DNA from: Halobaculum sp. MBLA0143
Lineage (GTDB): Archaea > Halobacteriota > Halobacteria > Halobacteriales > Haloferacaceae
DNA: 64,000 bases
Reading direction: 5' to 3'
NCBI RefSeq assembly: GCF_041361465.1
Contig: NZ_JBGKAC010000001.1
Location: 2,294,001-2,358,000 of the forward strand
The notes below the pieces were generated by a model. It made no database searches, was not told the DNA's origin, and saw nothing but the letters and a program-made list of their open reading frames with translations. Positions within the stretch are counted from its first letter, which is position 1. Each line of letters opens with the position of its first letter. Below are positions 13,751 to 50,757 of this stretch, in pieces. The position numbers were made by a program, and so were the translations under genes.

Positions 13751-14128
13751 TCAGGCGTAGATTTCGAGAGACAGCTTCACCACCTGGCCGTCGTAGATTA
13801 CGAACCGACCGACCTCGGAGTCGTCGGGGTGGTCTGGAAGTCGTTCGTAGGCGCGTACCGTAGCCCGCAGTTGGGGGCTCGGGACGCCGACGACGACCGG
13901 CTCCGCCGTCCCGTTCGACTCGAACGCGGCGACCGCCTGCTCCGTCGCGCGCCGGATCTGTCTGTTCTCGACTTCGGACAGCGGCACCGGATCGACGCCG
14001 GACGGTGCCGACGAGACGACGATCGCCTCCATTTGACCGCCGTTCGTCGGTGTTCCGACACCGATGCCAGCACAGCCGGTAGTCAGGAGGAGCAAGGCGA
14101 CGACGAACGTTGCAGCCAGCGGTCTCAT
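13751..14128 (-). CDS. Small secreted lipoprotein, paralogue A
   Basis: A 125-residue protein with a signal sequence and lipobox (MRPLAATFVVALLLLTTGC; Cys19 would be the lipidated residue). The mature part contains TPTNGGQ, VVSSAPSGVDP, then IRRATEQAVAAFESNGTAE and RAYERLP, ending in a beta-like VIYDGQVVKLSLEIYA. It is the same length as, and clearly related to, the gene at 14397-14774. It converges with aCPSF1, whose stop lies one base away. The function is not recognised; the relative beside a protease suggests a shared role. Confidence 0.75.
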   Translation of the reverse strand: MRPLAATFVVALLLLTTGCAGIGVGTPTNGGQMEAIVVSSAPSGVDPVPLSEVENRQIRRATEQAVAAFESNGTAEPVVVGVPSPQLRATVRAYERLPDHPDDSEVGRFVIYDGQVVKLSLEIYA

Positions 14129-14396: not shown

Positions 14397-14774
14397 TTAG
14401 CTGTAGACGAGTAGAAGAACTCTAACCACGCGATCACGGTAGACTACAAACCGCCCCAGACTCTCCTCCGCCTGGCTCTCGGGGAGCCGTTCGTACGCAC
14501 GTTCCGTCTCGTCCAGTGCCGGTCGCGGAACGGGAATGGTGACGGTCTCGGCTGTTCCGTTCGAGTCAAACGCGACGACTGCCTGCTCTGTTGCCCGCCG
14601 GATCTGTTCATTTTCGACTTTGGACAGTGGCGTCGGATCGACATCGGAAGGTGCCGACGAGACGACAACCGCCTCCACCTGCCCGCCGTTCGTCGGCGTT
14701 CCATTAGTCACTCCTGCACATCCGACAACACTGACTACCAAGAGAACTCCGACAGCCACACTCAGCTTTTTCAT
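14397..14774 (-). CDS. Small secreted lipoprotein, paralogue B
   Basis: A 125-residue lipoprotein (MKKLSVAVGVLLVVSVVGC, with a Cys after VVG). The mature sequence repeats that of paralogue A: TPTNGGQ, VVSSAPSDVDP, IRRATEQAVVAFDSNGTAE and RAYERLP. Its start codon overlaps the stop codon of the upstream serine protease in an ATGA arrangement, so the two are co-translated. The pairing suggests that it inhibits, guides or anchors the protease, which is inference. The start MKKLSV is preferred over an upstream one because it gives a proper signal peptide. Confidence 0.78.
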   Translation of the reverse strand: MKKLSVAVGVLLVVSVVGCAGVTNGTPTNGGQVEAVVVSSAPSDVDPTPLSKVENEQIRRATEQAVVAFDSNGTAETVTIPVPRPALDETERAYERLPESQAEESLGRFVVYRDRVVRVLLLVYS

Positions 14775-15922
14775 ACCGTTATATTTAATTTTTCCTCTCC
14801 GTGGATTATTGTAGTGGCATAGCAACTGTCTCCGCCTGCTGCTCCATTATGAGATGCGATCATCAGCGAACGGCCGTTCTCTACATTATACCAAGGCCCG
14901 CCAGAATCGCCATCTTTCTCGTTTCCTTTTCCAGCATACACCCTACCTTTTTCACCTCCAGAGTAATTAGTAAACTTCATTTTATTTCTCCCAGTTGTCT
15001 TTCCTTGTCTATATATTTCTTCATTTGAAGATGCCATATCTTTTAATTTGTCTTTTGCTATTACTCCATATATTTCCAGTCCCATATAGTTGTTCTCTCC
15101 TTTGTCAGCAATATCATATTTTCTAGATTCCCCATTTGAGTGGAACATACCGATATCGCCTTCTCCGTAAGGAGTGTACTTCTTACTCTCACCGAGGAAT
15201 GTTGTACAACAAGTTGCTGGCTGATATATATCCACCCCTTTCTGTCGTTTTAAGACGTGTGCTGCGGTGATCCATCCTGGTTGTGAGTTCCCCATGTCAT
15301 AGGCTGGACATCCAATAGTTCCATTGCTAAAGTCTCCACGCTCTAGCTGACATCCAGCAGGAACCGGCCTATATAATGAGCTGTACACTGCGCTCTGTTG
15401 TAAAGATTCTTTTTCCAACATAATTGGAATATTACTAATACGATGAGATCGGCCGTCATACTCCACTGTTCCTGAGGTAGCATCTGGAAGGCGCTGTTGA
15501 ACCTTATCAAGTGAAACGGGGGGTTGGCGTTTGATTTCTTTGCCCTTCTGTTCTGGACCCGATCTGATCGTAGTATAAGATACACGGATGACAGTCTCAC
15601 TATATTTATTGCTGTTTACATCTGGAGTTACTGATACAAATGGAATGTCTTTTACTTTATTCCTGATTTTTTGTGCAGCATTATAAGCTGTCTCAGTGCG
15701 GACCCACTCATCCCGTGGAATCGTGTGGAACTTAGCTTCGCGCGTTGGTTTCGCGCCGTTCACAACCGCCCTGTGATTCGTGTGCTGGTACGAGTGAGTC
15801 CGGACGATCGTATTAGTATCGTCAGCAGTCGCTGCTGCAATCTCCTCAATCTGCCCAGTAGCGAGTGCCGTTGCCGATACACCGAGTCCAGAGAGGCTCT
15901 TGACGAGACGACGCCGCCCCAT
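14771..15922 (-). CDS. Tat-exported trypsin-like serine protease
   Basis: A 383-residue protein with the Tat signal MGRRRLVKSLSGLGVSATAL; a start 14 codons upstream is possible. The mature part has a pro-region of about 180 residues, then a chymotrypsin-fold domain. The triad is visible: His222 in WITAAHV, Asp256 in YGEGDIGMF and Ser340 in GDSGGPW. Cys191, Cys205, Cys238, Cys239 and Cys367 may form disulfides. The gene is much richer in A/T, and its product richer in Lys and Asn, than its neighbours, suggesting recent transfer. It is coupled to the lipoprotein gene downstream. Confidence 0.85.
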   Translation of the reverse strand: MGRRRLVKSLSGLGVSATALATGQIEEIAAATADDTNTIVRTHSYQHTNHRAVVNGAKPTREAKFHTIPRDEWVRTETAYNAAQKIRNKVKDIPFVSVTPDVNSNKYSETVIRVSYTTIRSGPEQKGKEIKRQPPVSLDKVQQRLPDATSGTVEYDGRSHRISNIPIMLEKESLQQSAVYSSLYRPVPAGCQLERGDFSNGTIGCPAYDMGNSQPGWITAAHVLKRQKGVDIYQPATCCTTFLGESKKYTPYGEGDIGMFHSNGESRKYDIADKGENNYMGLEIYGVIAKDKLKDMASSNEEIYRQGKTTGRNKMKFTNYSGGEKGRVYAGKGNEKDGDSGGPWYNVENGRSLMIASHNGAAGGDSCYATTIIHGEEKLNITV

Positions 15923-16170
15923 CACACGCAGTTTTCGTTCTGTCGACCGCTGTCTCCCGTTCAACGCGGTCTCTGCGACAGGTGTGTTGTTACTGTTCGT
16001 CTCGGCCTGATTACTTTCGCCCGTTATAGATTCGCTTATGACACACCTACTTTATAGCTTTTTTATAAACTTTTGACATTCATGAGCAGGACCGTCAGAT
16101 GTAGTCGAGACGCTGTCTGGTCGGAGAACAACCCCTATGATTAATCAGCACGCCGTCGCACTGGTGTAGT

Positions 16171-42428: not shown

Positions 42429-43211
42429 TCAAGAGTCTCCTGCGGCGTCGAAGTTCGGCCCGTCTTCGCCGATCATCGGACAGCTCCGCACCCGGAAGTG
42501 GTCGCTGTCGCGCACCTCCACGATCTCCGTCCCCTCGTGGCCACACGACAGCTCCGGTGGCGACGAGAGGTACGGACACTGCTGGCAGTACTGTCGCTTG
42601 TCGACGACGTGTTCCGGCGCGTCCGTCGCCGTCTCCTCCACGGGCTCTGCGGCCGACTCCGAGTCCGGCTGTTGGAACCCCTCGTCGGTCTCCAACCGCT
42701 CCCACGCCTCCTCCGGGTCGATGTCCGCCGTTTCGACCGTCTCGAACGGTGACTCCTCCGGGTCGACGGCGTCGGCGTCGCCCGCCACCTCCGCCGCGAG
42801 CTCCGACAACGGCACGTCCGCCCCGGCGTCGTCGGCTGTCGTCTCCGCGGTCTCGTCGGCTGCCGTCTCTACGGTCTCGTCGGACGACTCTTCGGGGTCG
42901 TCGGCGTGACTGCCGGAGTAGGTGTCGTCCGGGATCTCGTCCAGCAGATCACCGGACGAGTCGCTCGACTGCGCGTCGTCGTCCGAAGTCTCCTGGCTCG
43001 CGTCGCCGAAGTCGACCTCGACGTCGTCGGAGTCGAACCCCTCCCCGTCGGCTGGCTCGTCTGTGTCGTCGACGTCGGGCTCGTCTGGGTCGTCGAGACC
43101 GCCGGCGCCGATCTCGTCCGCGAGGTCGGACAACGGCGCGTCTCCGGAGTCACGGTCGTCGTCCGCGTCGTGGTCGTCGGGCGGGTCGCCGCCCGGGTCG
43201 TCGTCAGTCAC
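42429..43211 (-). CDS. Acidic protein with C-terminal zinc-binding motif
   Basis: A 260-residue protein. Residues 1-195 are Asp/Glu/Ser/Thr-rich low complexity with two repeats of PLSDLADEI/PLSELAAEV. The last 55 residues contain conserved cysteines (YCQQCPYLSSPPELSCGHEG then FRVRSCPMIGED), a C-x2-C-x9-C pattern with a fourth Cys near the end. The gene overlaps the preceding coiled-coil gene by eight bases and belongs to a three-gene set with the RecA/KaiC-like gene upstream. Function unknown. Confidence 0.75.
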   Translation of the reverse strand: MTDDDPGGDPPDDHDADDDRDSGDAPLSDLADEIGAGGLDDPDEPDVDDTDEPADGEGFDSDDVEVDFGDASQETSDDDAQSSDSSGDLLDEIPDDTYSGSHADDPEESSDETVETAADETAETTADDAGADVPLSELAAEVAGDADAVDPEESPFETVETADIDPEEAWERLETDEGFQQPDSESAAEPVEETATDAPEHVVDKRQYCQQCPYLSSPPELSCGHEGTEIVEVRDSDHFRVRSCPMIGEDGPNFDAAGDS

Positions 43212-44142
43212 GGTCGTTCACCCCGTCTTCGGCCGGGTCGGAGAACAACGTCTCCACGTCCGCCGGCTCCGCGGGGTCGTCGTTGCCGACCTCGCGGCGG
43301 GCCGCAGCCCCGGGGTCGGTGTGGTCCGTCGGACCGTCCGCCGACCGCTCGACGGCGTCGCGCGACTCCTCCAACGCCGGGCGGTCGGCGACGACGAGCC
43401 GCGCGGGTCGGAAGAACCCCGTGTCCGTGTCGACCCCCTCGTACGGCGCCTCGCAGTGGGGACAGCGGGCGTCCGCCAGCAGGCCGAGGTAGACGGTCGA
43501 CTCGCAGGTGCCACAGACGGCGTCGGTCACCCCCTTCTGGGTGGCCTCGTGTTGGAGCGTCTCGGCGGCCGCCCGACGGTCGTCTGCCGCCTCCAACTCC
43601 GCCAGCCGGTCGCGCAGCCGGGTGATCGCGGAGACGAGCCGGTCCGTGCGGGAGCGTACGTCGTCGGTCCCCTCCTTCAGCCCGCGGAGGATACTCTCGT
43701 AGTTGTCGAACCCGCCGTCGACGCTGGCTTCCAGCGCCTCGACGGTCTCGCGGACCGACTCCGTCTCCGCGAGCGCCGCCTCCGCGGAGTCGGTGGCCGA
43801 GTTCGCCTCCGAGGCGACCGCCTCCATCTCCGTGCGGAGCTCCGGGTGGTCGTGGTCCGCCGACGCCTTCTCGTCGGCCTCGCGTTTCACCTGGATCACC
43901 CGTTCGCGCACGTCCTGGATCTTCTCGTCCACCTCCGTCTCCAGGTCGGCGACGCGCGACTCCAGCGTCGACAGCTCCTCGGCGTCCGGCTGCGGGAGGA
44001 GCGTCTCGTGTTCGTCGAGCAGGCGGTACGCGGCAGCTGCTCGCGCGAGCACCTCCGACGGGCTGCGGCCGGTCTCGGCGGCGCGCGCGGTTACCCACTC
44101 ACGCAACGGCTCCGGCAACTCGACGGCCTCCTCTCCGTCCAT
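43204..44142 (-). CDS. Coiled-coil protein with N-terminal RHH-like and C-terminal zinc finger
   Basis: A 312-residue protein. Residues 1-45 (EAVELPEPLREWVTARAAETG) resemble a ribbon-helix-helix segment. Residues about 50-200 are long heptad-type coiled coil (EELSTLESRVADLETEVDEKI). Then comes a zinc ribbon, VCGTCESTVYL...ARCPHCEAPY. The C-terminus is acidic. It sits between the KaiC-like gene and the acidic zinc protein. The architecture suggests a scaffold linking DNA and the ATPase-like partner, which is inference. Confidence 0.78.
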   Translation of the reverse strand: MDGEEAVELPEPLREWVTARAAETGRSPSEVLARAAAAYRLLDEHETLLPQPDAEELSTLESRVADLETEVDEKIQDVRERVIQVKREADEKASADHDHPELRTEMEAVASEANSATDSAEAALAETESVRETVEALEASVDGGFDNYESILRGLKEGTDDVRSRTDRLVSAITRLRDRLAELEAADDRRAAAETLQHEATQKGVTDAVCGTCESTVYLGLLADARCPHCEAPYEGVDTDTGFFRPARLVVADRPALEESRDAVERSADGPTDHTDPGAAARREVGNDDPAEPADVETLFSDPAEDGVNDRD

Positions 44143-44186
44143 CGGTCGTACTGGCTTCGTGACGGCGACCTAAGTAACCCTGCGGT

Positions 44187-45023
44187 TCACCTGATCTTCC
44201 GCACGTCGCTGATGTCCAGTCCGCCGTCGTGGATCTCCGTCTCGAACTGGACGATGTTCTCCGACTCTAGCTGGGAGAGCACACCCCGGAACTCCCGGAC
44301 CACCATCGTCCGGGCGCGCTGTGAGCCGCCGGACTCCCACCGGAACTCCAGGGTGCCGCCGCTGGCGTCCATCAACTGGCCGTACTGGATCTCCGTCAGC
44401 GTCTCGACGTTGACGATCGCGAGGAGGAGACAGCCCCACGAGTGGGCGGCCTTCCCCAGCCCGCGGGCCAGCATCGCCACGTCGTCCCACTCGATCTCGC
44501 CGCCGGCGGCGTCCACGAGCTCCGTCAGCGAGTCCAACACGACCACGTTCCCCTGGGCGTTGTCCGAGAGGTACTCCCCGACGGCGCTCAACACCTCCTC
44601 ACGATTCTCCCCGCCCGAGAGGTCCCGCAGCGAGGTGGCCTCGCCGACGTACCACTCCCGAGGGATGCTGGACAGCTGGAAGTACTCCTCGGAGAAGTCC
44701 TGGAACTGGATCTCGTCGATCGCGGCGTCTACGATCTCGTCGTCCATCACGTACCGGAGCTCCCGTTCCACGTACCCCTCGCCGGCCGACAACGAGAGGT
44801 AGTGGACCGCCTCCGGCCGCTCGGTCCCCTCGTCTAGCTCCCCGTAGTAGAGGTCGAACAGCTCCGGGTCCGACAGCGCGAGCGCGTTCATCGCCGCGCT
44901 CGTGTACGCGAACTCCCGACCACCGGCGCCGGACTCGCCCGCGACCAACACGCTGTTGCCGGGCGGCGCGCCGCCGCCGAGCACGTCGTCGAGTCGCGCC
45001 ACGCCGAACGGGAGCAGTGCCAT
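44187..45023 (-). CDS. RecA/KaiC-fold protein with degenerate Walker A
   Basis: A 278-residue protein often called HTR-like in haloarchaea. The start MALLPFGVARLDDVLGGGAPPG is that of KaiC/RadA-type proteins. The P-loop reads GESGAGGREF (residues 29-38): the catalytic lysine position 35 is Gly and the next residue Arg, so ATP hydrolysis is doubtful. The Walker B-like NVVVLDSLTELV is present. The C-terminal EFRGVLSQLESENIVQFE resembles a KaiC-like dimer arm. It is followed by two linked genes on the same strand. Confidence 0.8.
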   Translation of the reverse strand: MALLPFGVARLDDVLGGGAPPGNSVLVAGESGAGGREFAYTSAAMNALALSDPELFDLYYGELDEGTERPEAVHYLSLSAGEGYVERELRYVMDDEIVDAAIDEIQFQDFSEEYFQLSSIPREWYVGEATSLRDLSGGENREEVLSAVGEYLSDNAQGNVVVLDSLTELVDAAGGEIEWDDVAMLARGLGKAAHSWGCLLLAIVNVETLTEIQYGQLMDASGGTLEFRWESGGSQRARTMVVREFRGVLSQLESENIVQFETEIHDGGLDISDVRKIR

Positions 45024-45150
45024 ACTTACACTGTGGCGTGGCGGCGTTTAGGGGTTGTGGCGGCCGAGACCACCGACACGGAGCTGTGGCGGCTGTCACG
45101 TCTGTCCCCCACTCGTCCGGTCGTGAGAGTTTCCGAGCGAAAATTTCACG

Positions 45151-45393
45151 TTGGCTTACATCCTCGCGTCGAGTGTAGAACAGCTGCCCGACTCGCTGAC
45201 GGGGGTCGTCTACCTCGTGACCGGGATCGTAGTCGGGTCGATCGTCGCCGTTCCAGTCGTGAGCGCGGCGACCGACGACGGGGGACTGTTGTACCCGACG
45301 CTCGTGTACGTGTTCGTCGCCCTGGGAGTCGCACTGGTGTCGGCTCCGTCAGTAATCGAGGGATACAGATCGGTAGAGGTCGGCGACGAGTGA
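45151..45393 (+). CDS. Small two-helix membrane protein
   Basis: An 80-residue protein with a TTG start (reading LAYILASSVEQLPDS as MAYILASS). Two hydrophobic segments cover about residues 17-40 and 48-66. The C-terminus is short and charged (GYRSVEVGDE). The start is uncertain, as no ATG or GTG fits better. It lies upstream of tfs on the same strand. Confidence 0.55.
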   Translation: MAYILASSVEQLPDSLTGVVYLVTGIVVGSIVAVPVVSAATDDGGLLYPTLVYVFVALGVALVSAPSVIEGYRSVEVGDE

Positions 45394-45582
45394 TCGCCCC
45401 TCGGGGTGTTGCGAGCGCCGGGCGTCCACCGAGTCGAGGAACACGCCGTGCGGCGGCGACCCGTCGTCTCCGTCGAACGGTCCGGCGTCTGCAACCGCCT
45501 CGCCGAACGAGACGCTGCCGGCAGGACGACTCGGCTCTCTGATCGGACACACCTCTGCCCAGTGGTGGATACCAACGCTCAT
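45349..45582 (-). CDS. Possible small hypothetical protein
   Basis: A 77-residue reading frame (MSVGIHHWAEVCPIREPSRPAG) with haloarchaeal codon use. It is divergent from tfs and overlaps the 3' end of the small membrane gene by 45 nt on the opposite strand. The overlap and lack of recognised homology leave it uncertain. Confidence 0.3.
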   Translation of the reverse strand: MSVGIHHWAEVCPIREPSRPAGSVSFGEAVADAGPFDGDDGSPPHGVFLDSVDARRSQHPEGRSLVADLYRSVSLDY

Positions 45583-45609
45583 GTGACTGCTGGCGTTATG
45601 CCGACCACG

Positions 45610-45930
45610 ATGCAGTTCTGTGACGACTGCGGCTCGATGATGGTCGCGCAGGGCGACCAGATGGTCTGTACCGACTGCGGCACGGCCGCCGACAAGGACG
45701 CCGGCCTCTCGGAGGCGTACGAGTCCACCGAAGAGCAGAGCACGGACGACGTGATCGAGACAGAAGAGGGAGCCAACTTCGAGGGGAAGCCGACAGAGGA
45801 GACCAAGTGCGAGGAGTGTGGCCACGACGAGGCGTACTACACGTTCAAACAGACCGCCTCCGCCGACGAGCCGCCGACGCGGTTCTTCAAGTGTGTCGAG
45901 TGTGGCCACCGCTGGCGGGAGTATAATTAG
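45610..45930 (+). CDS. tfs: Transcription factor S (TFIIS-like RNA cleavage factor)
   Basis: A 106-residue protein. It starts MQFCDDCGSMMVAQGDQMVC with the N-terminal zinc ribbon (C-x2-C...C-x2-C), then an acidic linker. The C-terminal TFIIS ribbon is CEECGHDEAYYTFKQTASADEPPTRFFKCVECGHRWREY. The Asp-Glu tip is SADEP, which restores RNA polymerase cleavage. An ATG four codons upstream (45598) is possible, but family proteins begin at MxFC. Its stop overlaps the end of the convergent gene. Confidence 0.95.
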   Translation: MQFCDDCGSMMVAQGDQMVCTDCGTAADKDAGLSEAYESTEEQSTDDVIETEEGANFEGKPTEETKCEECGHDEAYYTFKQTASADEPPTRFFKCVECGHRWREYN

Positions 45931-46805
45931 AGTTTGGAGAAAGTCCTTGGGTCCCCAGATTTGACCACTCGTTCGAACCCCGCCTGCTCAACAGTGAAAA
46001 CTGGGATTGAGCGGCCTTCTGCTGCATTCATCGCTTTATCAGTAAATCCATTTATACTAATAAACAATATTCTGTTGCAAATAGAATCAGTTATGTATGT
46101 TTCAGACTGCCCACAGAACTGATGTACGTAACCCGGCGAAATTGGGCTTTTTTCCCACTTGTTCTCTACCATCGTTGAAAGGCCAAAGAAGTCAGCAAAC
46201 CACCCAGGCGGATTGTACCCTTTGACTATGACATCTAGTTCGCCAGTCTCCGTCTGTTCTTTTACCACCACGTTCACACCCTCTATCTGCGAAAATATTA
46301 TTCCGACATAGTAGTCAAGCTCTATTCCGCGCTTTGAGGGACTTTCTACCGATTTTAGATCTTCATAGAGAGATATTAATCCAGGCTCAGGTATGCTAGC
46401 TGACTCCATACAGTAGTATCGTACCGTTTCTGAGAAGTCGCTAAAAAAATCGTAGTGATTGGACCTCAGCTCAAACGTAAGTCTCCAGTTTCGTTTCTCA
46501 GCACTATCGAACTGATTACCGCACAGATCGCATCTCACATGCCCTTCTGGGAGCGATTGAGTCGAATGGGTTGAATATATACAGTCACAGTTTGGACAGC
46601 TTAGTTCAACCATACTTTGTACTTCCCCTTCGTCCTCAAGAGCTTCGAGAACAGCCACAGTGTATTCTTCATCGATTCCAGCTTCACTTGAGAGGTCTCT
46701 AACGGTGGCAGTTGAGGCATTCTTTTTCACTAATTCATTAAGTGAACTTTCTAATCGTTTCCGATCCTTCTCGGGTACCCCCTCTATTTTCTTTGACAAG
46801 CTCAT
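45927..46805 (-). CDS. Probable PD-(D/E)xK nuclease with wHTH and zinc ribbon
   Basis: A 292-residue protein. Residues 1-65 look like a winged helix. A zinc ribbon lies at Cys70-Cys73 and Cys92-Cys95. Residues about 155-280 match a PD-(D/E)xK nuclease core of Mrr type: helix IELDYYVGIIFSQI with Glu162, strand GELDVIVKG with Asp191, and STMVENKWEKS with Glu214-x-Lys216. The gene is A/T-rich with codon use unlike its neighbours, suggesting transfer. It overlaps the upstream gene by 68 nt, hence tight coupling. A restriction-like or defence role is inferred from architecture; the substrate is unknown. Confidence 0.72.
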   Translation of the reverse strand: MSLSKKIEGVPEKDRKRLESSLNELVKKNASTATVRDLSSEAGIDEEYTVAVLEALEDEGEVQSMVELSCPNCDCIYSTHSTQSLPEGHVRCDLCGNQFDSAEKRNWRLTFELRSNHYDFFSDFSETVRYYCMESASIPEPGLISLYEDLKSVESPSKRGIELDYYVGIIFSQIEGVNVVVKEQTETGELDVIVKGYNPPGWFADFFGLSTMVENKWEKSPISPGYVHQFCGQSETYITDSICNRILFISINGFTDKAMNAAEGRSIPVFTVEQAGFERVVKSGDPRTFSKL

Positions 46806-47727
46806 AGATTATTTCTAACACCTCGTTGTACACTTGTTCCATCTCAACGGTCTGGAAGCTGACCCTGTGGTCCTTCCAGTTCAATTGTAAGCGTATTTCC
46901 CTTTCAAACCCACCCACATCTAGCACAGCATACCCAGATATTACTGTTCCTCCTCGGTTTTGTACTAACTTCTCGTACTCAGAATCCTCTCGAACATCCT
47001 CACGCACTCCGCTGCTCCGACCGGAGGTGGCAGATACATCCCTAACAGTCTCATCATCATTCTCCCTGAGTCTCAGCTTCACCGACGAAAACCGCTCCAC
47101 ATGCTGGCTTTCAAGATCATCCTTTATAAGATCACCAATGCGTATTCTCCCCGACATCGTCTCTTTCTGGCCGAAAGAATCCCTTATGCCTGTAGTGATC
47201 CCCTTGGCGACTTTGTCGTTTGATGTTCTCACCTCATACACTTCTTTATTCCTATAGAATACAACTGGAACCGCTTTGCTCACGCCTTTGGACCTCGTCT
47301 GCATAGTCTTTGGATCAGTATGTCCAACGAAGTCTGTGTATGAGAATGTGAGATAGAGGTTACCTCTGATCTCTTCGCACTGCTCAACACTGTACCTCGG
47401 AGCAGCATCATCGTCACGATTAAAGTGCTTTTTGACTGTTCTTTCGATAGACTTGAATGACTCAGAGTCCAGTCCAGAGAGTTCGTAGTAATTGGTTGAT
47501 CCTGATTTTGCATACTTATACGCGCAGACGAGATCAGTAAGCTGATCACTAGACAGCTCGTCAACGACAGTCGCCGTGAACCGGTTAGGATCTGTATCCG
47601 CTTTTATATTATTTGCCCGGAGGAACCTTCGAACCGCCTCTTTAGCTATATCGTAAGACTTGATAAACTCCAGACGGCTGTCAGCATCTACTGAGGACTC
47701 ATCAGAAAGGTCATTCAAGGTACTCAT
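46738..47727 (-). CDS. Unknown protein, partner of the PD-(D/E)xK gene
   Basis: A 329-residue protein (MSTLNDLSDESSVDADSRLEF). The N-terminal 90 residues are helical (YDIAKEAVRRFLRANNIKAD...LTDLVCAYKYAKSGSTNYY). The middle has beta-type segments (GNLYLTFSYTDFVGHTD, VSKAVPVVFYRNKEVYEV). The C-terminal third has RGGTVISGYAVLDVGGFER, then VSFQTVEMEQVYNEVLEII. I recognise no known family. It is A/T-rich like its partner, and its 3' end runs 68 nt into the next gene. A TATA box lies 27 nt before the ATG. Confidence 0.75.
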   Translation of the reverse strand: MSTLNDLSDESSVDADSRLEFIKSYDIAKEAVRRFLRANNIKADTDPNRFTATVVDELSSDQLTDLVCAYKYAKSGSTNYYELSGLDSESFKSIERTVKKHFNRDDDAAPRYSVEQCEEIRGNLYLTFSYTDFVGHTDPKTMQTRSKGVSKAVPVVFYRNKEVYEVRTSNDKVAKGITTGIRDSFGQKETMSGRIRIGDLIKDDLESQHVERFSSVKLRLRENDDETVRDVSATSGRSSGVREDVREDSEYEKLVQNRGGTVISGYAVLDVGGFEREIRLQLNWKDHRVSFQTVEMEQVYNEVLEIIYELVKENRGGTREGSETIRKFT

Positions 47728-47750
47728 ATTATCGTCCTGGCTCCCCTCTC

Positions 47751-47757
47751 GTTAAAA
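47751..47757 (-). promoter_or_regulatory. TATA box of the A/T-rich cassette
   Basis: It reads ATTTTAA on the minus strand, centred about 27 nt before the ATG at 47727. It indicates that the two-gene cassette has its own promoter. Confidence 0.55.
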
Positions 47758-47768
47758 TCTGTTGGAAA

Positions 47769-47815
47769 GGGCTATAGCATATCTGATACTAATAGCCCCT
47801 ATATCCCAGTATCAG
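47769..47815. repeat. Two overlapping inverted repeats upstream of the cassette promoter
   Basis: GGGCTAT (47769-47775) pairs with ATAGCCC (47792-47798), and CTGATACT (47783-47790) pairs with AGTATCAG (47808-47815). The two hairpins overlap and cannot form together. They sit just upstream of the TATA box and could be operator sites. Confidence 0.75.
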
Positions 47816-47861
47816 AGCCACTCACCAAATATTAGATAGTATGAGCAGAGCTAGCAGGTAT

Positions 47862-47901
47862 AAAAAATTGGTGATTGAAAGTCCGTAGAGACAGCGTCTA
47901 C
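47862..47901 (-). terminator. Probable terminator of the cold-shock gene
   Basis: On the minus strand a short hairpin over the stop codon (GTAGA...TCTAC, 47885-47901) is followed by a run of six T (47862-47867). This resembles an archaeal T-tract terminator. Confidence 0.5.
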
Positions 47902-48092
47902 TGGCGGACGACGTTCGTCGCGCGCGGACCCTTCTCTGCCTGTTCGATTTCGAACTCGATCTCTTCGCCTTCGGTGAGGTCCGGCCCGCCGACGTCCTCC
48001 ATGTGGAAGAACACGTCCTCCTCGGAGTCGTCAGTCGCAATGAAACCGTAACCGCCCGTGTCGTTGAAGAAGTCGACCTTCCCTTCTGCCAT
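47898..48092 (-). CDS. cspA: Cold-shock domain protein
   Basis: A 64-residue single-stranded nucleic acid binding protein. The RNP-1-like stretch is GGYGFIATDD and the RNP-2-like one is DVFFHMEDVG. The start MAEGKVDFFND is the family start and lies 29 nt from a TATA box; an ATG eight codons upstream is less likely. Haloarchaea often carry several copies. Confidence 0.95.
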   Translation of the reverse strand: MAEGKVDFFNDTGGYGFIATDDSEEDVFFHMEDVGGPDLTEGEEIEFEIEQAEKGPRATNVVRQ

Positions 48093-48118
48093 AGCAACTC
48101 GAACGAGGCCGGACACAC

Positions 48119-48124
48119 CTATAA
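48119..48124 (-). promoter_or_regulatory. TATA box of the cold-shock gene
   Basis: It reads TTATAG on the minus strand within GGGTTATAGG, centred about 29 nt before the start at 48092. Confidence 0.55.
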
Positions 48125-48258
48125 CCCTTTCCGTTCGTCCACGAGAGCGGGGTGAGAGTGGTCATCTGTCACACACGACCCCGTCGTTTCGAACAAACGT
48201 TTTCGTTCCCGACAGTGTCGCGGCCGCGCAGCCGACGTTCAGTCGCTCGTGTCGGAGA

Positions 48259-48897
48259 TCACTGTCCGTTCTGGAAGTTCTCCGCGAGCGCGTCCGGGAG
48301 CCAGCCGGCGACGTGGTCGGCGACGGTCCCGGCCTGGCCGACGAAGAAGTGGTCGGCCGGGAGCGACACGGTCTCGGCGCCGGCCGTCTCGGCGGCTTCG
48401 ACGACCGGCTCCCAGTCGGCGACGTCGTCGCGCGTGCCGGAGACGACGAGTGTCGGGGCGTCGACCTCCGGAACGGCCGCGACGGCGTCGAGATCGTCCG
48501 CGATCCGGGCGGTCGGCGCGAGCGCGGCGACGGCGTCCACGCGGCGGCCCGTCTCGGTCGCCTCGCCGGCGACGACGAGCGACAGCGTCGCGCCGAAGCT
48601 GAAGCCGAACAACCCGACGCGGTCCGAACGCTCGCGCGCCCAGTCGACGGCCGCTCGCACGTCGGCGCGTTCACCGTACCCCTCGTCCCAGTCACCGTAG
48701 TCGAAGCGGAGACAGTCGACACCGCGGGCCGTCAGATCGTCGGCGACCGCCCGCAGGCGCTCGTCACCACGGTGACCGCGGTGTCGTGGGTGCGGGGGGC
48801 AGGCGACGACACAGGCCGTCGCGTCGCCGTCGGCGCGATCCAGACTGGCCCGCACGTCCCGGCCGCCGGGGACGAGAACCGTGTCGCTGTCGGTCAC
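48259..48897 (-). CDS. Alpha/beta hydrolase
   Basis: A 212-residue hydrolase. The nucleophile elbow is GLFGFSFGATLSLVV (Ser in GFSFG). An Asp is available in LVVSGTRDDVADW, and the catalytic His is in SLPADHFFVGQ. The early ACPPHPRHRGHRGDERLRAV resembles the oxyanion strand of dienelactone-hydrolase-like proteins. The substrate is unknown. Confidence 0.87.
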   Translation of the reverse strand: MTDSDTVLVPGGRDVRASLDRADGDATACVVACPPHPRHRGHRGDERLRAVADDLTARGVDCLRFDYGDWDEGYGERADVRAAVDWARERSDRVGLFGFSFGATLSLVVAGEATETGRRVDAVAALAPTARIADDLDAVAAVPEVDAPTLVVSGTRDDVADWEPVVEAAETAGAETVSLPADHFFVGQAGTVADHVAGWLPDALAENFQNGQ

Positions 48898-48969
48898 GGC
48901 CGTTCGTCGGGACTGGAGGGGCAGGAGACTGTCGGTCCACCGGGGGGCGAGTGAAACGTGTGATTAGGA

Positions 48970-48976
48970 TTTATTG
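48970..48976 (+). promoter_or_regulatory. TATA box of the pspA-like gene
   Basis: TTTATTG is centred about 27 nt before the ATG at 48999, fitting a leaderless transcript. Confidence 0.5.
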
Positions 48977-48998
48977 GGTAGAGTCCCAATGACCGACC

Positions 48999-49856
48999 AT
49001 GGGAATCCTCTCTCGGGCATCGTACGTGGTCCGGTCGAAGATCAACACGCTCCTGAACCGGGCCGAAGACCCCTCCGAGACGCTCGACTACAGCTACGAG
49101 CAGATGCGCGACGAACTCCAGGAGGTCAAACAGGGCATCGCGGACCTGACGACCCAGAAGAAGCGCCTGGAGATGCAGAAGCGCAACTTGGAGGACAACG
49201 TCGAGAAGCACAACGAACAGGCACGCGAGGCAGTCCAGCAGGACCGCGAGGACCTCGCCCGGAAGGCGTTGGAGAAGAAGAAGTCGAAGATGAGCCAGAT
49301 CGAGGAGCTGGAGGGACAGATCCAGGAGCTCCAGAGCACCCAAGACCAGCTCGTCGAGAAGAAGAACCAGCTCCAGGGCCGGATCGAGGAGTTCAAGACG
49401 AAGAAGGAGACGATGAAGGCGCGCTACGAGGCCGCCGAGGCGTCCAACCGCGTGAGCGAGGCGATGTCCGGCGTCGGCGACGAGATGGAGGACGTGGGTC
49501 GGGCGATCGACCGCGCCGAAGAACGGACAGAGGAGATGGAGGCGCGCTCGGAGGCGATGGACGAGCTCCAGGCGACCGGCACGTTCGACGACGCGCTCGC
49601 GGACGGCGACGAGATCGACCAGGAGCTCCAACAGGGTCGGGCCGACCGCGAGGTGGAGACGGAACTGGAGACGCTCAAGTCCGACATGGGCAAGGGAAGC
49701 TCCGGCGGCACCAACGGCGCCGACACGGAGACCGAGACGGAGTCGACGGACGACGTCGACCTCTCGGACCTGGACGACGGGGGGACCGGCTCGAACGAGG
49801 AGATCGAAGCGGAGCTAGAGGAGATCAAAGACGACACGGACGAGAAGTCGAACTGA
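48999..49856 (+). CDS. PspA/IM30-family membrane-associated protein
   Basis: A 285-residue coiled-coil protein (MGILSRASYVVRSKINTLL, the amphipathic N-terminal helix). Next is DPSETLDYSYEQMRDELQEVKQ, typical of PspA/Vipp1, then long heptads up to about residue 215. The last 65 residues form an acidic haloarchaeal tail with Glu/Asp/Thr repeats. The family forms rods and rings that stabilise membranes under stress. It is monocistronic with its own promoter. Confidence 0.92.
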   Translation: MGILSRASYVVRSKINTLLNRAEDPSETLDYSYEQMRDELQEVKQGIADLTTQKKRLEMQKRNLEDNVEKHNEQAREAVQQDREDLARKALEKKKSKMSQIEELEGQIQELQSTQDQLVEKKNQLQGRIEEFKTKKETMKARYEAAEASNRVSEAMSGVGDEMEDVGRAIDRAEERTEEMEARSEAMDELQATGTFDDALADGDEIDQELQQGRADREVETELETLKSDMGKGSSGGTNGADTETETESTDDVDLSDLDDGGTGSNEEIEAELEEIKDDTDEKSN

Positions 49857-49911
49857 ATCGATCCGGGCCGGTCGGACCTGGTCCGGTCTGCTCCCCGAGA
49901 GAGGGGTCTCG

Positions 49912-50757
49912 TTACTCGACGGCTGTGAGTCGGCCTTCGCGGACGGCACGGAACCCCAGTTTGTCCGCGTACCCGTCCGTCGACATCAACACGGGGTAGA
50001 AGGCCTCCTGGGCCTGGACGGACGCCCCGTCTCGGCGGGCGAACGCCTCGCCGGCGGCGACCCGTCGGAAGTTCTCGCCGGTGAACACGTCGCCGGCCCG
50101 GCCGGCCTCGCCGACGATCCGGAACAGTTCTGGCGTCGTCCCGCGCGCCGGGAGCCCGTGGTCCGGCGTCGTCTCGGGCAGAGCGACCGCGTCGCCCGTC
50201 GGCAGTGCCGACGGCTCCGGGACGAGTTCGGCGGCGGTCAGGAACCGCGCGACCACCCGGACGGCGACGCCGGCGGCCGCCTCCGACCCGCTCAGCCCGC
50301 ACTCGACGGCGACACCGTCGACGTGTGACAGGAGTCCACCGCCGAGGGAGCCGGCGTCGACAGCGTGGTCCGTGCCGGTCGCGGCAGCGAGCGCGAGCGA
50401 ACGGTCGGTCGTCCGACCGACGACCGCGAACGGCTCCGAGCCGGAGACGGTGGAGTGGAGGTCGAGGACGGTCCGGCCCTCGACGGCCGACAGCACGTCG
50501 GCCGCCAGCCGCGACTCGTGGCTGTCCCCGTCCGGGTCGCCAGGGAACGCGCGGTTCAGGTCCTCGTCGACGCAACGGCACCCGTCGTCTATCGCCCGTT
50601 CGTTGGCGACGACGAGCCGCAGGGGTTCCGCCAGCTCCGGCTCGTTGGCTCGCAGGTGCTCGACGGCCCGGAGACCACACGGCTCGTCGCCGTGGAGACA
50701 GGCGACGACGGCGTACGAGGGGTCGTCGCCGCCGAGGTCGGTGACACGCACAGACAC
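49912..50757 (-). CDS. Succinylglutamate desuccinylase/aspartoacylase-like zinc hydrolase
   Basis: A 281-residue M14-type metalloenzyme with a GTG start (VSVRVTDLGGDDPSY). The zinc motif is VACLHGDEPCG (H-x2-E), and the third ligand is TVLDLHSTVSG. CRCVDEDLNRAFPGD holds the conserved Asn-Arg pair that binds substrate. The catalytic Glu may lie in HVDGVAVECGLSG. The substrate is not certain. A GTG two codons later is an equal start. Confidence 0.85.
   Translation of the reverse strand: MSVRVTDLGGDDPSYAVVACLHGDEPCGLRAVEHLRANEPELAEPLRLVVANERAIDDGCRCVDEDLNRAFPGDPDGDSHESRLAADVLSAVEGRTVLDLHSTVSGSEPFAVVGRTTDRSLALAAATGTDHAVDAGSLGGGLLSHVDGVAVECGLSGSEAAAGVAVRVVARFLTAAELVPEPSALPTGDAVALPETTPDHGLPARGTTPELFRIVGEAGRAGDVFTGENFRRVAAGEAFARRDGASVQAQEAFYPVLMSTDGYADKLGFRAVREGRLTAVE

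Follow-up and report, generated by a model that had tools for sequence, protein, structure and literature searches.

Two overlapping genes on the minus strand fill the space between tfs (45598-45930) and cspA (about 47898-48092) in the 64-kb stretch of haloarchaeal DNA that was analysed, referred to here as the window. The upstream gene, P1 (46738-47727), encodes a protein of 329 amino acids and the downstream gene, P2 (45927-46805), one of 292 amino acids. The two share 68 nt (46738-46805, minus strand), and the stop codon of P2 overlaps that of tfs. Both open reading frames, their overlap and their position between tfs and cspA agree with the preliminary description of this DNA. Its remark on low GC content and deviant codon use was also borne out: the whole cassette (45927-47860, minus strand), delimited by breaks in the alignment with the congener G445, has a GC content of 45% compared with 68.8% for the remaining window, and is essentially the lowest-GC 1.9-kb stretch of the 64 kb. 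The GC3 values of the two genes are 0.49 and 0.43, against 0.82-0.94 in the neighbouring genes. The separate promoter that had also been proposed can be kept as a weak candidate, a TTTTAA that was spotted by eye some 30 nt before the start codon (ATG) of P1. Upstream of P1 there are also two interleaved perfect inverted repeats, TCTGATACT/AGTATCAGA (47782-47816, strand unassigned) and GGGCTAT/ATAGCCC (47769-47798), which together (47769-47816) form a possible operator.

Comparison with related genomes indicates how the cassette came to lie at this site. In the congener G445, whose TFS is 90% identical, tfs and cspA are separated by an unrelated intergenic spacer of about 100 nt and the pair is absent; the G445 genome is incomplete (74%), with the tfs-cspA site itself intact. 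The alignment of the window with this genome (L056) stops exactly at the tfs stop codon and picks up at about 47861. P2 is also absent from the congeners G173 and G345, both of which were searched. Single-sequence searches of 391 haloarchaeal genomes detected P1 in 12 and P2 in nine, and in eight of these nine P2 adjoins P1 with a similarly long overlap; a P1 profile search gave matches in 27 of the 391 genomes. Family-wide searches added one further pair (G400), and another copy is located in a transposase-rich region of a Natrinema thermotolerans plasmid. The overlapping unit thus recurs at ten haloarchaeal loci, corresponding to about 2% of the genomes searched, with hosts including Natrinema limicola, Natrialba hulunbeirensis, Haloarchaeobius iranensis and Haloferax elongans. 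P1 and P2 overlap by about 65-71 nt in these homologues. The distances among P1 and among P2 proteins are correlated (Mantel r 0.93, p 2e-4, with related loci treated as independent), indicating that the two genes co-diverge. Recurrence as a unit and the tfs-cspA spacing in relatives, the two comparisons proposed at the outset, therefore both point to an acquired two-gene cassette that moves horizontally among haloarchaea. A core locus is ruled out by the empty site in G445 and by the patchy distribution. A provirus origin is likewise unsupported, because viral contigs searched with both members of the pair, with the profile of P2 and with the T7 motif described below gave no relatives, no phage record matches P1, and beyond the genomes P2 was found only in records of the N. 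thermotolerans plasmid.

P2 combines a winged helix, a zinc ribbon and a PD-(D/E)xK domain of the Mrr type. The winged-helix domain (residues 12-65; 46611-46772, minus strand) is seen in the predicted model and has weak matches to HTH_24 and TrmB, and the zinc ribbon weakly matches MJ0042-type and other zinc-ribbon models. The zinc-ribbon cysteines Cys70, 73, 92 and 95 (46521-46598, minus strand) and the nuclease core Asp191 and Glu214-x-Lys216 had been named from the sequence beforehand, and all align with conserved columns in relatives. The nuclease signature G-E189-L-D191...E214-N-K216 (46158-46241, minus strand) is invariant at E189, D191, E214 and K216 in all six intact homologues. P2 scores 21.2 bits against the Pfam family Mrr_cat (PF04471), marginally above the cut-off of 21, and five of 14 rows of P2 relatives match this family (best E 4.8e-5). 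In the AlphaFold2 model of P2 (pLDDT 86), the winged helix and zinc ribbon are followed by a PD-(D/E)xK domain that begins at about residue 136, in agreement with the expected nuclease fold. VIA-align ranked the Mrr-like protein AF1548 first (Z 12.0 over 112 residues), and the next structural matches included BspD6I, a CRISPR ancillary nuclease, LlaBIII, EndoMS, AspBHI and MspJI, with restriction enzymes at Z 8-10. Thus, P2 is predicted to have a PD-(D/E)xK fold with a catalytic D...ExK motif. AspBHI and MspJI are modification-dependent, and by analogy cleavage of modified DNA by P2 is only a lead.

P1 is an acidic protein (pI 5.3, less so than its neighbours) with no match in Pfam, NCBIfam or PADLOC and no sequence match in the PDB. 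Its AlphaFold2 model, built on 22 aligned rows, has a pLDDT of 84 and a pTM of 0.81 and corrects the earlier view that the protein resembles nothing recognisable. The model matches RdgC (Foldseek 3e-7; Z 13.6 over 217 residues, 4.3 Å) and CENP-N (Z 9.2), with CENP-N, CENP-L and Chl4-Iml3 all at Z 8-9; unrelated rows in this comparison reach Z 8.5, but over 87 residues only. Phage RdgC-like models also match it, and lambda RexA gives a weak Foldseek match (2.4e-3). In the predicted model, the RdgC-like two-sheet region covers residues 73-321 (46765-47511, minus strand) and is preceded by an N-terminal helical region (residues 1-70). None of 23 P1 relatives matched the RdgC Pfam family at E ≤ 5, so P1 was not placed in the RdgC sequence family. 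The suggestion that P1 might be the KwaB protein of Kiwa was rejected, since Pfam scans of P1 relatives gave no match to the DUF4868 profile. P1 is therefore predicted to have an RdgC/CENP-N (RexA-like) fold. According to the paper on the crystal structure of lambda RexA, this protein is a structural relative of RdgC and Iml3-Chl4 and binds DNA non-specifically (PMC11077077). On the basis of these fold matches and the RexA structure, we infer that P1 may be a DNA clamp, a shared fold being no proof of DNA binding.

At four of the ten loci, P2 is split into two reading frames: one in Haloferax elongans (L031), two in genomes of family f4 (L032 and L053) and one on a plasmid of N. thermotolerans (L025). 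The zero-frame product of 128 amino acids contains the winged helix and the zinc ribbon, whereas the nuclease is encoded by an ORF in the -1 frame. The junction reads GATTTTTTTC in all four cases and contains the slippery heptamer T TTT TTT (T7), which at L031, L032, L025 and L053 is followed by the conserved -1 ORF. A -1 shift at T7 would give a protein of 295 amino acids, the length found in intact homologues, and the fused sequence is in register with these homologues on both sides of T7. The nuclease half has dN/dS values of 0.04-0.09 at dS 0.8-2.2 across the four loci, indicating strong purifying selection, and lacks a conserved start codon; the plasmid annotation starts this piece at a TTG inside the -1 ORF. 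Variable sites are scarce in the stretch from T7 to the conserved zero-frame TAG (4 of 40) and far more frequent past the TAG (160 of 500; p 0.001). In this split clade, the first part of P2, which overlaps P1, also shows little nucleotide variation. The sequence GGAGG is located 7 nt upstream of T7 in all four loci, and a search for conserved RNA structure downstream of T7 found none. Programmed -1 recoding at T7 is the likeliest explanation of this arrangement.

Two other explanations concern the recoding step only. The frame split might instead reflect gene fission, with the nuclease half translated by re-initiation after the zero-frame TAG, which we regard as unlikely and which would not compete with a defence function of the pair. 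The TTG found 15 nt past the TAG in three of the four loci, about where the predicted nuclease domain starts, would suit re-initiation, but the plasmid copy has TTA at that codon. Moreover, the -1-frame homology to intact proteins runs right up to T7, the overlap zone between T7 and the TAG is unusually conserved, and intact genes also keep T7. Bacterial restriction genes are often phase-variable via homopolymers, and T7 might accordingly be a phase-variation tract, with T8 as the ON state and the four split loci as OFF-state snapshots. A single added T would indeed fuse the frames; however, four lineages whose nuclease halves differ by dS of about 0.8-2.2 all have T7 and none has T8, 7 nt is short for such a tract, and intact genes carry exactly T7 as well, which makes this possibility quite improbable. 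A pseudogene is ruled out because of the dN/dS of 0.04-0.09, and a sequencing error because T7 is seen in four lineages and in two sequence records of plasmid DNA from N. thermotolerans A29.

Having set these explanations against programmed recoding at T7, we turn to the intact genes. In the P2 gene of the window, T7 (46443-46449, minus strand) is part of GAT TTT TTT (Asp119-Phe-Phe), a slippery-type sequence at the boundary between the P2 domains and the sole A/T run of seven or more in the 64 kb. The run is found at the same P2 codons in nine of the ten loci, including five of the six intact genes (the one in the window among them). At these codons TTT is used in 19 of 20 cases, compared with 57 of 158 other Phe codons in the ten loci (Fisher 3e-7), and in the intact genes alone in 11 of 12 (2e-4); both tests treat related loci as independent. 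A -1 slip in the window gene would meet a TAG (46441-46443) at once and give an N-terminal product of 121 amino acids. The window gene is intact, and therefore no frame shift is needed there for the full-length protein. In the intact genes the -1 frame closes 0, 1, 3, 4, 11 and 23 codons past T7, and such early stops are not commoner than expected by chance; recoding in the window gene is thus suggestive only.

The pair is often located near restriction or BREX genes. Its neighbours include a type IIG restriction-modification protein and an SNF2/HKD helicase at L029, HSDR_N at L030, Mrr and GmrSD at L031 (Haloferax elongans), BrxHII at L032, and an Mrr/LmuA-like protein at L027. In the region examined around it, the window locus is not accompanied by any recognised defence gene, and no ORFs of the Hma helicase, methylase and ATPase set were found at 43000-50500, so the locus was not assigned to Hma. 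About a dozen P1 copies without P2 adjoin genes for a DUF1156 methylase and a DUF499 ATPase, and such DUF499-DUF1156 islands correspond to Hma, or BREX-related, systems (PMC12839542).

Several further observations were made in these regions. The other contig of the source genome carries one of these copies, a second, diverged P1 relative beside HmaB/HmaC-type genes (L104 9702-10574; G000:C2 about 391.7-392.6 kb). In G161 (L106 4153-17364), a P1 relative with a C-terminal extension is located inside an apparent Hma-like operon comprising a 1101-aa ORF, a methylase-like ORF, P1, two small ORFs and a 1308-aa ORF with an SNF2-like stretch. Downstream of the pair in Natrialba hulunbeirensis (L028 12622-18231) there is an eCIS core-domain protein together with a run of similar ORFs of about 300 aa. 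The window itself contains a second low-GC island (14771-15964, minus strand, about 46%) with a candidate trypsin-like serine protease of 397 aa, in which a GDSGGP motif was recognised by eye and whose N-terminus is signal-like. A similar N-terminus is found in the product of a gene annotated as a trypsin-like protease that lies close to the pair on the plasmid of N. thermotolerans (L025 2375-3616). Beside the protease island are two tandem, similar, small lipoprotein-like genes (13751-14128 and 14397-14825, minus strand), an apparent duplication.

From these data, P1 and P2 can on balance be read as a horizontally moving, DNA-targeting defence pair of haloarchaea, a clamp (P1) with a nuclease (P2) of which the cell probably makes a long and a short form. 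The proposal of an acquired, possibly DNA-targeting defence pair in the preliminary description is supported by the nuclease fold, the recurrence of the unit, the restriction and BREX neighbours and the empty site, and the defence activity would presumably be antiviral. In the proposed mechanism, P1 would load on, or sense, invading DNA or its replication or recombination intermediates. The winged helix and zinc ribbon of P2 would contact DNA and/or an interacting P1, and P2 would act as the effector nuclease, its Mrr-type PD-(D/E)xK domain cleaving the DNA. The ribosome (or RNA polymerase) may slip at the conserved T7 between the P2 halves, so that one gene could yield both the full-length nuclease and a short winged-helix/zinc-ribbon form. 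Such a short form could still attach to DNA while being unable to cleave it, and act as a repressor or brake. A more specific proposal, which we put forward tentatively, is that the pair represents an undescribed type of defence, in which an RdgC/CENP-N clamp commands a nuclease, slippage at the T7 kept even in intact frames sets the ratio of full-length to cutting-dead product, and the clamp is shared with Hma/BREX-related islands.

A function in recombination and repair, or in regulation, with the pair merely travelling with defence islands, appears doubtful. P1 would then modulate recombination or replication like RdgC, and P2 would be an EndoMS/NucS-like repair or recombination nuclease. 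RdgC and EndoMS are indeed among the top fold matches, and the window locus lacks recognised defence neighbours, but occurrence in about 2% of genomes, the empty site, plasmid carriage and low GC content do not fit core repair, and there are Mrr_cat matches, with AF1548 ranking above EndoMS. It is less probable still that the genes form a toxin-antitoxin-like or selfish stabilisation pair, in which P1 restrains a toxic P2 nuclease: the overlapping layout, with P1 upstream and translated first, and the mobility and plasmid carriage would be in keeping with this, but P1 is unlike a dedicated antitoxin because it is as large as P2 and has relatives without P2 inside Hma-type islands.

The components of the proposed defence pair are known folds. 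P2 shares its PD-(D/E)xK core with Mrr-type and type IV restriction nucleases (PF04471; AF1548), from which it differs by its winged-helix and zinc-ribbon N-terminus, its overlapping partner P1 and the conserved T7. Neither an RdgC-like clamp combined with a dedicated nuclease nor the conserved slippery site turned up in the available portions of PMC11077077, PMC12839542, PMC12988326, PMC8037382 and PMC5009743. The -1 frameshift of Saccharolobus fucA likewise involves a slippery heptamer, a C-terminal part in the -1 frame and an overlap of about 40 nt (PMC8037382); a count from 2021 given there lists one archaeal frameshift gene as unequivocally demonstrated. In contrast to fucA, the T TTT TTT discussed here is located in a haloarchaeal nuclease gene and is kept also in intact frames, GGAGG upstream of it in the split P2 genes takes the place of rare codons, and recoding is predicted from sequence comparison. 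The P2 loci are a compact set in which the case for frameshift recoding of a cellular archaeal gene can be made by comparison.

With regard to P1, relatives in haloarchaeal islands adjoin the HmaB-type methylase of Hma/BREX-related DUF499-DUF1156 systems, often divergently, whereas P1 of the window is paired with P2 only and has none of the Hma genes. Lambda RexA is RdgC-like and works with a second gene (PMC11077077), but P1 matches RexA weakly, is structurally closer to RdgC, and has a predicted nuclease as its partner instead of the membrane protein RexB, which sets the pair apart from RexAB. The predicted fold of P1 resembles both RdgC, the recombination-associated DNA ring of E. coli, and the CENP-N/CENP-L and Chl4-Iml3 proteins, from which P1 differs by the lack of detectable sequence similarity, by its extra N-terminal helical region, and by its defence-linked neighbourhoods. 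The genes would connect the RdgC/RexA/CENP-N DNA-clamp fold with an effector nuclease in what may be an archaeal defence pair, and the module is reused in Hma-type islands, which makes a sensor role of this fold directly testable. The helical-plus-RdgC-like layout of P1 resembles that of CENP-N and may provide a lead on prokaryotic kin of kinetochore proteins.
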